Below the pieces are notes generated by a model, which worked only from the letters and a program-made list of their open reading frames with translations, was not told the origin of the DNA and did not search any database. A DNA stretch of 64,000 nucleotides from an uncultured Flavobacteriales bacterium (GTDB lineage: Bacteria; Bacteroidota; Bacteroidia; Flavobacteriales_G; Salibacteraceae), in contig CAJXNO010000010.1 in NCBI GenBank assembly GCA_913057205.1, forward strand, positions 1 to 64,000. The letters are read 5' to 3'. This document shows, in pieces, positions 40,195 through 45,123 of this stretch (the stretch's first letter is position 1; every line of letters starts with the position of its first letter). A program made the position numbers and the translations under genes.

Positions 40195-40224
40195 CAAAAC
40201 TAATTTATCCAAACTCGAAAGCAA
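40195..40224 (-). promoter_or_regulatory. mdh promoter
   Basis: The minus strand reads TTG (40224-40222), 19 bases, TAGTTTTG (40202-40195): an exact TTG-N19-TANNTTTG. The predicted start is near 40189, about 27 bases before the ATG at 40162. Confidence 0.75.
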
Positions 40225-40259
40225 CTGAATTTGTTCTTTACGTCCATAGCTTAGAAGAT

Positions 40260-40271: not shown

Positions 40272-43235
40272 ATGAAGAGAGGCTTCCTTTTTCTATTGAT
40301 GGTGTTGGTGATGAGTACCGTCCAACTGCACGCTCAAATCACCTATTACCCAACAAACACGATCATTGCAACGAATGATACTGGCTTCTGTCCTCCCGCA
40401 ACATTTGATCTGGTAGCCAATGGCGGCGGCGGTTGTGAATACGAGTTGGAGTCAATTCCTTACAACCAATATTCAATTGGAGGTACAACCATTTCAATGT
40501 TTGATGACCAAATTCAAGGTCCCTTCAATATTGGTTTCGACTTTGACTTCTATTGTAACACTTACACGCAATTCTACATATGTTCCAACGGATGGGTAGG
40601 GTTCACCGGTGGACAAACCCAAACCTGGGTGGTACAAGCGGTACCCAGCACAGCATTTAATGTGCCGAAAAATGTGATCATGGGTCCATGGCGCGACTGG
40701 AACCCTGGAACCGGAGGAGGCACCTATGTCTCCTATCAAGTACAAGGTACAGCGCCTAACAGAAGGCTCGTGGTTACTTGGAATGCAGTGCCAATGTTCT
40801 CGTGTACCACCACCTATGGTACGTTTCAAATTGTTTTGTTTGAAACCACAAACGAGATCGAGAATAACTTGACCAACGTACCTGTATGTCCGCAGTGGGG
40901 TAACGGTGACGGAACCAATGCCCTTCACAACCTACCTGGAACTACCGCTGATATTATTGCCGGACGAAATGACAACAACTTCACGGCTACCAATGAGTCT
41001 TGGAGGTTTTCCTTACCTAAGGTCGACTGGATCTACCAAGGAGATACCGTAGGAACAGGAAGTACGCTTGAGGTAAGTCCTGCTAATGGTGTATATCCTA
41101 CAGCTTGCGAGTATGTTTACGCGGTAATCGATTCCTTGAACGGAAGTGTCGCTATTGACAGTGTTTTGTTGTCACCGTTCTGTAAGATCCCTCAATTCAA
41201 CGTTACCGATGTGCAATGCCACGGTGACAGCTCAGGCATGGTCATCGTAGAAGACACCAATTCTCAAGCTGCCTTCCCACAAAGCTACTTTTGGTTTGAT
41301 AGCAACGGAGACACCATTCTGACTGGTGTGAACAACTCCAATTTCGATACGCTTTTCAACGTATCAGCAGGCGACTACTCGGTAACCATTAAGGATGCTT
41401 CCGGTTGTTACATCAGCAATGGAGAAGTTACCGTTGACGAGCCACCATTACTCGTTTCGAGTATTTCCAATCAAACCATGACGAGTTGTCCAGGCGGTTT
41501 AACGTGCGATGCGTCTGCCCAGGCTGCGGGTGCAGGTGGAACTCCTCCATATAGTTATGTATGGTCATCTGGAGAGCCCTTTCAAGTTGCTAATCTGCTA
41601 TGTCCAGACTCCAACTTTGTAACCGTAACCGATATCTTCGGCTGTACGTCGGTATCATCTGTAGTAATCGATGTTCCGGACACGATAGAAACCATTGGAT
41701 ATGGTGATACGTTGATTTGTATAACAAACCCTGCGACCATCGTAGCCGCATCTACCGGAGGTACTCCACCCTTCTCTTACGTTTGGACCGAAGGTTCATT
41801 GAATGGTCAGGTAGTTGCTACCACACAAAACACAGTAGTGACTCCAGAGGTGAACACCCCTTATTTCGTTAGTTCGATTGACGCGAATGGATGTCCAGGG
41901 GATACCTCCAAGGTTTTGATCAAAGTGAGACCACCACTCTCCTCAGAGATCACGTCTGTAGATACCATTTGTCCTTATGATACGATTGATATAACCATTG
42001 TAGGATTTGGCGGAGACTCTCTTTACACCTTCTCTTGGAGCAGTGGAAACTTTGGTGATGTGATCACCGTGAGTCCAGACGAATCCACTTGGTACAACGT
42101 TACCGTGAGCGATCAATGCGGTTCACCAAGCTACCGGGATAGCGTTTTTGTTCAGGTTGGCGGATACAGTAAAATCCAAGCCAACATCAACTTAGAAGAT
42201 GATTCCATCTGCGCGGGTGAAAATGTATACTTGATCGCAAACGGAACCGGCGGTTTCAGAGGTCCGGATGAGTATCGATATGCGTGGAGTGCAGCCAACA
42301 TGGACGATAAACCCATTCAGTTCGCACGTCCTACCCAAACCACTACCTACACGTTGACGATTACGGATTTGTGTCTTTCCCCAGCCGGAGTTGCTGAGAA
42401 GACCGTTTATGTGGGTAATCCTTACACGCCTCCATTCATCGCTAACCCACCGGAATCATGCAGTGGTGCTGAAGTGATTATTTCTTTCGCACAAACGCAA
42501 CGTGGTTACCGATATGATTGGGATTTCGGTGATGGAACAGTACTTGAAAATGCATTTACAGATACCGTGTTTCATGAGTATGCAAACCCTGGATGTTATG
42601 ATGTGACCTTAAGAACCGTAACAGACTTTGGGTGTGTTTCAGAACGTACTGAGGCATGCCTCATCAACATCCTGCAAGCTCCAACGGCTTCCTTCGTTCA
42701 TACCCCTGAGCATCCAAATACCTTGGATCCGTTCGTGAAATTCGAAGATCGATCTAGGGAAGCAGAAACCATCCTGTGGTACTTGAATGGAGATACGCTG
42801 TCTATGGACTCCCTTTTCGTTCATGAATTCAGTGATACCGGAGCGTATGAAGTACGCTTGGTGGCCTTCTCTCAAGATGGATGTACAGACACTGCCATGG
42901 TACCGTTGATGCATTTTGCGGAGCAAACCGTGTATATCCCAACTTCTTTCACTCCTAATGGTGATGGTCTCAACGATGTCTTTCGCATAAGTGGTGAAGG
43001 GATCAGCTACGATCGCTTTGAGTTGGTCATCTATGATCGTTGGGGTAACCGGGTCTTCAAGTCTACCAATCCCGATTACGGTTGGGATGGTCGCATGCTC
43101 CAAAATGGAGGTGAATTCGTTCCAACTGGAAGCTATCCTTACACCTTACAATATGTTGACCGTTCCGGAACGATACGTAAGCTTCGAGGACAGATCATTG
43201 TGAGTGCTTCAGGATCCAATCGAGGTTTGCGATAA
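40272..43235 (+). CDS. Large secreted protein with PKD-type repeats and T9SS type B sorting domain
   Basis: The 987-residue protein has a signal peptide ending LHAQ (residue 22). The N-terminal globular region has an aromatic FDFDFYCNTYTQFYICSNGW stretch like those of nidogen-like or surface-lectin domains. Several Ig/PKD/SprB-type repeats follow (segments such as PPYSYVWSSG, PPFSYVWTEG and YTFSWSSG), and a clear PKD unit has YDWDFGDGT. The last about 95 residues are the gliding-motility-associated C-terminal domain: VYIPTSFTPNGDGLNDVF, then YDRWGNRVFKS and GWDG. This domain directs export through the type IX system and surface attachment. Probable role: adhesin or gliding-associated surface protein. 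Downstream, 44 bases away, lie an ECF sigma factor and its membrane partner. Confidence 0.9.
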   Translation: MKRGFLFLLMVLVMSTVQLHAQITYYPTNTIIATNDTGFCPPATFDLVANGGGGCEYELESIPYNQYSIGGTTISMFDDQIQGPFNIGFDFDFYCNTYTQFYICSNGWVGFTGGQTQTWVVQAVPSTAFNVPKNVIMGPWRDWNPGTGGGTYVSYQVQGTAPNRRLVVTWNAVPMFSCTTTYGTFQIVLFETTNEIENNLTNVPVCPQWGNGDGTNALHNLPGTTADIIAGRNDNNFTATNESWRFSLPKVDWIYQGDTVGTGSTLEVSPANGVYPTACEYVYAVIDSLNGSVAIDSVLLSPFCKIPQFNVTDVQCHGDSSGMVIVEDTNSQAAFPQSYFWFDSNGDTILTGVNNSNFDTLFNVSAGDYSVTIKDASGCYISNGEVTVDEPPLLVSSISNQTMTSCPGGLTCDASAQAAGAGGTPPYSYVWSSGEPFQVANLLCPDSNFVTVTDIFGCTSVSSVVIDVPDTIETIGYGDTLICITNPATIVAASTGGTPPFSYVWTEGSLNGQVVATTQNTVVTPEVNTPYFVSSIDANGCPGDTSKVLIKVRPPLSSEITSVDTICPYDTIDITIVGFGGDSLYTFSWSSGNFGDVITVSPDESTWYNVTVSDQCGSPSYRDSVFVQVGGYSKIQANINLEDDSICAGENVYLIANGTGGFRGPDEYRYAWSAANMDDKPIQFARPTQTTTYTLTITDLCLSPAGVAEKTVYVGNPYTPPFIANPPESCSGAEVIISFAQTQRGYRYDWDFGDGTVLENAFTDTVFHEYANPGCYDVTLRTVTDFGCVSERTEACLINILQAPTASFVHTPEHPNTLDPFVKFEDRSREAETILWYLNGDTLSMDSLFVHEFSDTGAYEVRLVAFSQDGCTDTAMVPLMHFAEQTVYIPTSFTPNGDGLNDVFRISGEGISYDRFELVIYDRWGNRVFKSTNPDYGWDGRMLQNGGEFVPTGSYPYTLQYVDRSGTIRKLRGQIIVSASGSNRGLR

Positions 43236-43279
43236 TCGCAAGGCAACCTCTTCAATAAAGCGCGTCATTATTACGGTAC

Positions 43280-43861
43280 ATGGGAATTTGGCATCGACAT
43301 GAGGAATTGCAACTGATAGAGGGTTGCAAGAACGAAAGTCGAGTCTCCCAGCAAGAGGTGTTCTCTAAGATGTACGGCGTCCTTTTAGGTATTTGTATGC
43401 GCTACGCACGAGATCGAGATGAAGCAGAAGATATTCTTCAAACAGGTTTCATCAAGGTGTTCAAGGGCATCGATAACTACAAAGGAGATGGTTCTTTTGA
43501 AGGATGGATCAAACGGATCGTTGTAAATACGGCGATCGATAATTATCGGCGGAAGAAAGTACGTCCGGTAACCACCGACTCGGAGTTGGTGGATCGATCG
43601 AGTGAGACGTTAGTGGAGGGAGAAGAAGACGAAAGTGTTTACAATCTCGTACCGGTGCAGGAAGTGATGGATGCTATTCAGCAGCTCTCGCCAGCGTATC
43701 AAACCGTATTCAACCTTTATGTGATGGAAGGCTATAACCACAATGAAATCGCAGAAATGCTACACATCAGTGTGGGAACGTCTAAATCGAACCTGAGCAA
43801 GGCACGCCAGAATTTGAAACGAATACTTCAACCGACCGTAGATCGATTAAGTCAGGAATGA
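43280..43861 (+). CDS. ECF-type RNA polymerase sigma factor
   Basis: The 193-residue protein has a sigma2 region (about 30-95) including YARDRDEAEDILQTGFIKVF and WIKRIVVNTAIDNYRR. A charged linker follows, then a sigma4 region (about 130-185) with LSPAYQTVFNLYVMEGYNHNEIAEMLHISVGTSKSNLSKAR, the helix-turn-helix that reads the -35 region. This is the SigW/FecI-like extracytoplasmic group. It follows the type B cargo gene by 44 bases and overlaps the next gene by four bases (ATGA). That next gene has the layout of an anti-sigma factor, so the sigma factor is probably held at the membrane by it. Confidence 0.95.
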   Translation: MGIWHRHEELQLIEGCKNESRVSQQEVFSKMYGVLLGICMRYARDRDEAEDILQTGFIKVFKGIDNYKGDGSFEGWIKRIVVNTAIDNYRRKKVRPVTTDSELVDRSSETLVEGEEDESVYNLVPVQEVMDAIQQLSPAYQTVFNLYVMEGYNHNEIAEMLHISVGTSKSNLSKARQNLKRILQPTVDRLSQE

Positions 43862-45123
43862 CCATGAATAGTTTTGATAAGATAATCGCCGAGAAGCTGG
43901 AAGCAGCAAACCAGTACGCACCTGATCAGTCCATGTGGGCGCGTATTGAACAAGATTTAGCGGCTTCACCTTCTGCTTCATCAGCGCACTCGGGTAAAGC
44001 CGGGTTCATCGGGGGGATTGCAGCAAGCATCCTTATGGGTGTTTTAATCACCCAGCTTCCTTCCCTCGGACCGATCCAGCATAATGCATTGCAAACATCT
44101 TTTGAATTAGAGAATGTTTCAATTATTAGCAATGCATCAACTGAGCTCACTGCACCGGCGTTTGAAGCACAACAGCGTCATGAGATCAGCCTCATGGATG
44201 GGCCAGATGCTAACACCGTCAAAGAGCCGGTCATCACGAAGAAGCAAACCGTCAATAAAGCAAACGATGGTAGTGTCTCAGAAGAGGTAGAAGCAATAGA
44301 TAAAGCTGCGGAATTAGCCAATGGTACCGCACCGGATCATTCGCCATCACAGCAGCATGCGAAGAAGGTACAACCTGAATTGAATTTCAGTGCTACCGGC
44401 ATCCAATGCGCAGGAGAAGAGGTGGTGTTCGAAGTAAAGGGATCCTTTGACAAGGTTGAATGGCTTTTTGATGGGATCGACTTTGCAACACAACAAGTAG
44501 CGCATCATGCCTTCGATGAAGCAGGCACGCATCAGGTTATGTTGATCGCCTATGAAAATGACGAGCGCTATACCACCACGAAAGAGATCGAAGTGTATCC
44601 ATCTCCAGAACCACGGATCATGTCCGAAGTAACGAACAGCGAGGATTGCTTCAAAGCAACTGCAATTTGGACTGCCGACCCAGGAACCAATGCGTACAAA
44701 TGGACGATCGATGGCAATCAAATCGATGGCAATCGAGCATCCTTCCTCTTGGAAAATGGAAGGTACAACGCTAGCTTAGAAGCGATCAATGAGCACGGCT
44801 GCGTGAGTGAGCATGTGCGCAGCATTGAAGTGACCAAGGCGCGCGATCTATTCATACCAACAGCCTTTAGTCCTGACAACGATGGTACCAATGATGAGTG
44901 GTTCCCAGAAGGACTTGAAGAGGTTGAACGCTTTGATGTGAAGGTTTACGAATTGACTAGCAAACGACTGGTTTACCGCACCGTTGAGGCACGCCCTTGG
45001 AATGGTCGGGTGAACGGAACAGCCGAACAAGCGAAGCGCGGCGATAAATTCATTTACGAGGTCATTGCGACCGATCACTGTGGCAATCGCATCAAACGCG
45101 ATGGTGTTATAACGGCTTTCTAA
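43858..45123 (+). CDS. Membrane-spanning PKD protein with anti-sigma-like N-terminus and type B C-terminal domain
   Basis: The 421-residue protein has a cytoplasmic N-terminus of about 47 residues (FDKIIAEKLEAANQYAPDQS then MWARIEQDL), of the kind found in many Bacteroidota proteins encoded after ECF sigma genes. One membrane helix (about 48-67) follows, then a Ser/Thr/Glu-rich linker to about 170. Two PKD-like domains (about 172-325) come next. A final domain (about 330-421) has LFIPTAFSPDNDGTNDEWF and WNGRVNG and belongs to the gliding-motility/type B C-terminal family. No cleavable signal peptide is present. Type-B domains normally sit on secreted proteins; here one ends a protein anchored in the inner membrane. 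The likely role is a sensor that releases the sigma factor; this is inference. Confidence 0.85.
   Translation: MTMNSFDKIIAEKLEAANQYAPDQSMWARIEQDLAASPSASSAHSGKAGFIGGIAASILMGVLITQLPSLGPIQHNALQTSFELENVSIISNASTELTAPAFEAQQRHEISLMDGPDANTVKEPVITKKQTVNKANDGSVSEEVEAIDKAAELANGTAPDHSPSQQHAKKVQPELNFSATGIQCAGEEVVFEVKGSFDKVEWLFDGIDFATQQVAHHAFDEAGTHQVMLIAYENDERYTTTKEIEVYPSPEPRIMSEVTNSEDCFKATAIWTADPGTNAYKWTIDGNQIDGNRASFLLENGRYNASLEAINEHGCVSEHVRSIEVTKARDLFIPTAFSPDNDGTNDEWFPEGLEEVERFDVKVYELTSKRLVYRTVEARPWNGRVNGTAEQAKRGDKFIYEVIATDHCGNRIKRDGVITAF

Follow-up and report, generated by a model that had tools for sequence, protein, structure and literature searches.

The locus pairs an ECF sigma factor gene with a gene for a membrane protein that ends in a relative of the type B sorting domain of the type IX secretion system (T9SS). 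It raises the question of whether a sigma factor can be held in check by a protein resembling the cargo of a secretion machine, and to what end. How T9SS cargo production is matched to the machine in Bacteroidota is largely unknown beyond the PorXY-SigP pathway. The window analysed here is the whole stretch of 64,000 nucleotides, and all features described below lie on its forward (+) strand.

The sigma gene (P0001, 43280..43861) is of the ECF type, with clear regions 2 and 4 in Pfam (Sigma70_r2, 4e-17; r4_2, 3e-15) and a match of 1.4e-29 to the NCBIfam ECF model. The open reading frame of its partner (P0002, 43858..45123, 421 amino acids) overlaps it by the four bases ATGA, as the earlier note had observed. 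The overlap itself is not conserved, since the spacing between the two genes differs between relatives, and a further in-frame ATG at 43864 (MNSFDKII) is a candidate for the true start of the partner. Five paralogous ECF sigma factors of the source genome have partners with the N-terminal tryptophan motif described below; two of these partners have CHU_C-like ends and three have barrel-like ends. The latter, at loci L149, L150 and L151 (G000, contigs C9, C7 and C6), thus have the appearance of the Dma proteins discussed below. The second pair with a CHU_C end, L148 (1634-3207; G000:C1:62166-63650), encodes a partner with the N-terminal motif, a span, a long tether and a type B CTD, but without PKD domains.

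The partner is a predicted single-span inner-membrane protein. Hydropathy analysis gives one hydrophobic span (score 1.86; the next best segment has 0.67) at residues about 48-67 (43999..44058), and this is also found in the AlphaFold2 model. The span starts at residue about 48, after a charged cytoplasmic end of about 40-48 residues, and by hydropathy the partner does not have a Sec signal peptide. The model, built from an alignment of 56 related sequences, has helices at residues 5-18 and 24-35, the span, a disordered stretch, and then beta domains up to the C-terminus. From residue about 176 onwards pLDDT is 89-98, and in residues 64-88 and 137-157 of the low-complexity tether it is below 50. 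Two PKD-like domains (44368..44598 and 44608..44838) are indicated by PKD_4 (35.2 bits versus a cut-off of 27, with a second PKD_4 stretch) and by the model, the second also by the alignment; a PDB sequence search returned mostly PKD proteins. The type B CTD-like domain follows at 44845..45120. The short cytoplasmic N-terminus, single membrane helix and PKD-like domains first read from the sequence are thus borne out. Within the otherwise disordered tether, residues about 100-125 (44155..44232) are predicted to form ordered strands around a QxRHEISL motif, with pLDDT up to 97. Its general form, QxxHxIxL (columns about 185-200 of alignment A1), is kept in the window's own genus and in G030 and is a possible docking or protease-control element.

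The pairing is not a product of chance, since in 30 genomes of the family the best sigma match always has such a partner downstream (30/30). It is also found in two further families of the order and in many records named as Flavobacteriales, Crocinitomicaceae and Cryomorphaceae. A survey of Bacteroidota, in which sigma genes were searched first and the downstream gene was then read, yielded 193 pairs after removal of duplicates. Partners with CHU_C-like ends number 120; 35 are long without CHU_C, several of them barrel-looking, and 38 are short. The pairing of ECF sigma genes with CHU_C-ended membrane partners thus recurs widely, a point that the earlier note, with PKD-CHU_C proteins in mind, had left to a neighbourhood survey. 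The CHU_C label changes three times over 118 rows of the sigma tree, compared with a mean of 58.5 when shuffled. With a whole-partner profile, at least 2 of 296 genomes across the phylum match at E<1e-40 among the best six candidates per genome, where CHU_C proteins crowd the matches. A minimal form, with N-terminal motif, span and CTD-like domain but no PKD, is present in a Chlorobiota MAG (L105, 4539-5189). A Bacteroidota-type pair with a CHU_C-type partner also appears in a complete genome titled Glaciecola amylolytica (L055, CP034120.1), whose label is probably wrong. Improbable names are also borne by several MAG records of this sort (Chryseobacterium gleum, Candidatus Kuenenia, Chitinophaga pinensis).

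SprA is present in 34 of 35 family genomes, the source genome included, and in 385 of 395 genomes of the class, so that T9SS presence is uninformative as a correlate. One genome, G386 (locus L201, 95% complete), has a CHU_C-type pair without a SprA match. This is probably an assembly gap; otherwise it is a counter-example to T9SS dependence.

The N-terminus of the partner has the features expected of a sigma-binding segment. The putative anti-sigma segment (43867..43965) consists of two helices with the motif FDxxIxxxL..(E)xP..W..IExxL, in which W27 is invariant; the motif is found in all 193 partners. At L064, L066, L080, L103 and L208 it occurs in tandem two to three times before the span, as if there were several sigma-binding segments. 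For modelling, in-frame sigma/partner pairs were joined into a single chain with the stop codon read as glycine; the alignment had 31 natural in-frame pairs and 88 sigma rows, and L048 was modelled. The AlphaFold2 model of sigma with the partner N-terminus has a pLDDT of 85.5 and a pTM of 0.82, with about 77% of residues ordered; both partner helices are at pLDDT 95-97 and a 26-residue linker is at about 50. With this share of ordered residues, such a pTM would mean that both sigma regions (2 and 4) and the partner helices have a confident placement relative to one another. In Foldseek, the top ranks are ECF factors in anti-sigma complexes, the CnrH complex (PDB 4cxf) being among the matches. 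The sigma arrangement resembles that of SigW/RsiW (target-normalised TM up to 0.63) more than that of RNA polymerase-bound ECF factors (about 0.32-0.42). Long open frames in one genus had suggested natural sigma/anti-sigma fusions, but these turned out to be ordinary separate genes.

Known anti-sigma models in Pfam and NCBIfam do not match the partner. In an analysis of mutual information between sigma and partner, the N-terminus was enriched 2.5-fold in the top 50 pairs and the CTD nearly as strongly (1.95-fold), the larger set being dominated by phylogeny. Taken together, the confident predicted packing, the invariant motif and the conserved adjacency give good support to the proposal of the earlier note that the partner is a membrane anti-sigma factor, with the sigma factor predicted to be bound by the partner N-terminus.

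What is new at the DNA level is a conserved predicted promoter, GCAACC-N14/15-CGTC, upstream of the sigma gene, with the same type upstream of T9SS cargo genes. The sigma element is a footprint across genera, and its GCAAC-CGT form is found at 95 of 115 CHU_C-type loci versus 0.35 expected from shuffles. In the window the predicted ECF-type promoter of the sigma/anti-sigma operon, GGCAACC-N14-CGTC, is at 43242..43266, is the sole exact match in the genome and would provide autoregulation. Directly upstream of the sigma gene is a gene (40272..43235) whose secreted product, a T9SS cargo, has PKD/SprB repeats and a complete type B CTD (CHU_C 66.1 bits, TIGR04131 49.6 bits); the gene is a predicted regulon member. 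Its predicted promoter, AGCAACT-N14-CGTC, is at 40220..40244. All 11 relatives (own genus and G030) have a type B-like cargo gene in this position, and in all 11 the cargo promoter is kept as AGCAACT-N14-CGT(C/T); there, as in the window, its distance to the start codon is 11-28 bp.

In the source genome GCAACYN{14,15}CGTC matches five times, and the reversed control 29 times. Three of the five matches are situated 14-40 bp before genes, namely the sigma gene and two genes for type B cargo, one adjoining it and the other on contig C8; the remaining two are inside genes. Of the 26 ordinary type B genes found there, only 2 carry the motif. Among 35 genomes there are 68 exact matches, 18 of them at ECF sigma genes. 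Of the other 50, 21 directly precede genes of secreted proteins of the T9SS cargo type, in nine genera besides that of the window. The C-terminus is readable in 17 of these, and a T9SS sorting model matches in all 17 (11 type B, 6 type A); 15 exceed the curated cut-off of NCBIfam, and L352 exceeds that of Pfam. Since the total of exact matches does not exceed that of the reversed control, placement is informative and count is not. With an assumed number of about 100 cargo genes per genome, a 60-bp zone and one orientation, about 0.1% of the genome is covered and about 0.05 of 50 matches would be expected by chance.

The T9SS link thereby gains independent support, in that the type of promoter predicted for the sigma gene also precedes T9SS cargo genes. 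The motif is presumed to be recognised by the window's own sigma factor. A second group of CHU_C sigma factors has a −10 element that, judged by eye, is apparently CATC. This speaks for assigning the CGTC sites to the group of the window, but other ECF paralogs might read them. The L148 promoter looks like GGCAACT-N-CATC, a form common to L160, L161, L163 and L165. A site resembling GGCAACCATGTAAGTATAAAACCGTC is found at L326, L341, L342 and G033:C6:9873, in four genomes of one genus. There is no clear coding gene downstream of these sites, and perhaps they are promoters of a small RNA.

The identity of the C-terminal domain was judged by profile searches. Pfam CHU_C gives 26.7 bits (E 6e-6), narrowly below its curated cut-off of 27, and TIGR04131 gives 29.7 bits (E 5e-7), below its cut-off of 35. 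The type B assignment of the earlier note, which it had made dependent on such a search, therefore falls short by curated cut-offs in the window protein itself, but holds by E values and by orthologs. Family orthologs match CHU_C in 30/30 cases and TIGR04131 in 26/30 (at E<0.1), so that the domain is considered real but diverged. In L148 the CTD passes both cut-offs (TIGR04131 40.8 bits, CHU_C 54.2 bits).

The observations can be brought together in one scheme, to which a probability of roughly 0.55 is assigned: an autoregulated ECF sigma/anti-sigma pair controls T9SS cargo genes, with the CTD-like domain either bound to a T9SS component of the outer membrane or in competition with cargo for that component. 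The partner N-terminus would tie sigma to the inner membrane, with span and flexible tether placing the two PKD domains and the CTD-like domain in the periplasm. Docking there would most plausibly be on a PorP/SprF-like shuttle or on the SprA translocon, and through it the CTD-like domain may sense the state of the T9SS. Altered engagement would then free the sigma factor, probably via proteolysis, to transcribe, from GCAACY-N14/15-CGTC promoters, its own operon and the cargo genes. Conjectural in this scheme are the identity of the docking partner, the sign of the signal and release by proteolysis. A more specific version can be put forward tentatively, in which the anchored domain acts as a cargo mimic, competing for access to shuttle or translocon with type B cargo proper. 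Sigma release would then report free T9SS capacity and match cargo synthesis to it, in a logic like that of FlgM/sigma28 but with the inhibitor anchored rather than exported. An anti-sigma factor with a relative of the cargo's sorting domain, together with a common promoter type, makes a possible secretion-coupled feedback loop directly testable with few genes.

The tethered CTDs differ from ordinary ones in their motifs. RWG is missing from all 120 tethered CTDs, and R[WYM]G, found in 26 of 26 ordinary type B genes of the source genome, is absent from the window partner and from L148. PNxDGxND is retained in 57 of 120, and the FxPNGDG loop is gone in several genera. Given the loss of RWG, the domain probably serves for docking or sensing and does not work as an export signal; a role of the partner as a working T9SS substrate is accordingly rated lower. 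The simplest reading would be that the domain was kept for docking or sensing and freed from export demands. The earlier note had spoken of an export domain; a relative of the type B domain is indeed present, but with RWG lost "export-domain relative" is the better term. In Flavobacterium johnsoniae five conserved type B motifs are each required for secretion, and in the portion of that report available none is equated with RWG (PMC12618676). A 195 amino acid open frame at L297 (G000:C16:22949-23173) also has a weak type B domain (26.5 bits) without RWG.

The same losses count against docking, as the shuttle contact may be gone from a domain that is below cut-off and has so few of the motifs. 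They also favour a possible, though doubtful, alternative in which cargo genes are indeed controlled by a genuine sigma/anti-sigma pair, but the partner's PKD and CTD-like domains serve only as an Ig-like scaffold for an unrelated periplasmic or surface signal, such as a ligand or envelope stress, and the export-signal likeness reflects domain origin instead of function. Foldseek matches of the partner model, merely generic Ig/FnIII/PKD folds, agree with this, as do the 38 partners with a related N-terminus whose C-termini are short and unrelated. The scaffold would, on the other hand, make a coincidence of two facts: the tethered domain persists in many families as the extreme C-terminal module, and T9SS cargo genes are the predicted targets.

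The CTD-like domain could instead be an outer-membrane anchor in trans on a PorP-like barrel, so that the partner spans both membranes and its signal concerns the spacing, integrity or vesiculation of the outer membrane, not the load on secretion. The precedent is the Dma/Das system of Bacteroides thetaiotaomicron (Dma1/Das1, Dma2/Das2), in which the anti-sigma factor is dual membrane-spanning (PMC13088901). The order of parts is that of Dma with the barrel replaced, and paralogous sigma factors of the source genome have barrel-type partners. Type B CTDs bind PorP-like barrels, which hold them at the outer membrane (PMC9143113), and a CTD could therefore replace the barrel as the outer-membrane contact; seven PorP-family genes are present in the source genome. 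This reading is nevertheless improbable, as no PorP-like gene adjoins the pair, the motif missing from tethered CTDs could be the shuttle contact itself, and the predicted regulon consists of cargo without outer-membrane repair genes. That the partner is no anti-sigma factor but an ordinary protein of the cell surface whose gene is co-transcribed with that of sigma, as the failure of known anti-sigma models would allow, is very improbable in view of its long cytoplasmic N-terminus ahead of the span, the universal tryptophan motif, the confident predicted packing with sigma, the adjacency kept though C-terminal modules are swapped, and the Dma precedent.

Parts of this design are found in several known systems. 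CnrY (CnrH/CnrY, PDB 4cxf), a class II minimal anti-sigma domain, has a cytoplasmic segment of about 45 residues before a single span. The partner has a cytoplasmic segment of like length in the same position, but there is no detectable sequence relation and the periplasmic parts are unrelated. With T9SS type B cargo such as SprB and PG1035, the partner shares an arrangement in which PKD repeats lead into a CHU_C-like end (PMC9143113; PMC12618676), and it is weakly homologous to the product of the adjoining cargo gene. It differs from such cargo in having no Sec signal peptide, an internal span after about 48 cytoplasmic residues, a CTD below cut-off without R[WYM]G, and no adjacent porP-like gene.

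The PorA-PorXY-SigP pathway of Porphyromonas gingivalis likewise has a CTD-bearing protein upstream of an ECF sigma factor that controls T9SS genes (PMC7712824; PMC4800418). In that pathway PorA stands apart as a surface protein, PorX activates the sigma factor via a two-component system, and the genes controlled are those of the T9SS machinery. In the window, the CTD-like domain belongs to the presumed anti-sigma factor itself. SigP is activated by PorX without a partner anti-sigma factor, and the adjacent partner in the window thus argues against SigP orthology. In Flavobacterium psychrophilum, the ECF promoter set SM6 places an ECF/anti-sigma pair and T9SS genes under a common promoter with CGT in the −10 region; the targets given there are the machinery genes gldN and porU, and the text consulted does not describe the type of anti-sigma factor (PMC9723704). 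The matches found here are cargo genes. The open-access literature, to which the search was confined, yielded no description of an anti-sigma factor with a T9SS sorting domain at its end.

The closest resemblance is to Dma, with which the partner shares a short N-terminal anti-sigma segment, one membrane helix, a long disordered tether, a folded C-terminal module, an adjacent ECF sigma gene and restriction to Bacteroidota (PMC13088901). Beside three paralogous sigma factors of the source genome there are relatives with a similar N-terminus and a barrel-like end. Dma ends in a beta-barrel and its targets are NigD1 or polysaccharide-utilisation genes; the window protein instead carries a pair of PKD domains with a CTD-like domain of T9SS type B, and its predicted targets are T9SS cargo genes. 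As the order of parts is the same except for the barrel, the protein is not classed as a Dma but is said to work like one. The design, which the earlier note had called unusual, is so against textbook anti-sigma factors, but less so beside the barrel-ended relatives (Dma) published in 2024-2026. The comparison suggests that the dual membrane-spanning anti-sigma design is modular, with a common short anti-sigma end and exchangeable outer modules (barrel, PKD with CTD, and others). Such modules often occur several per genome, and perhaps they are behind much of the ECF signalling in the phylum.
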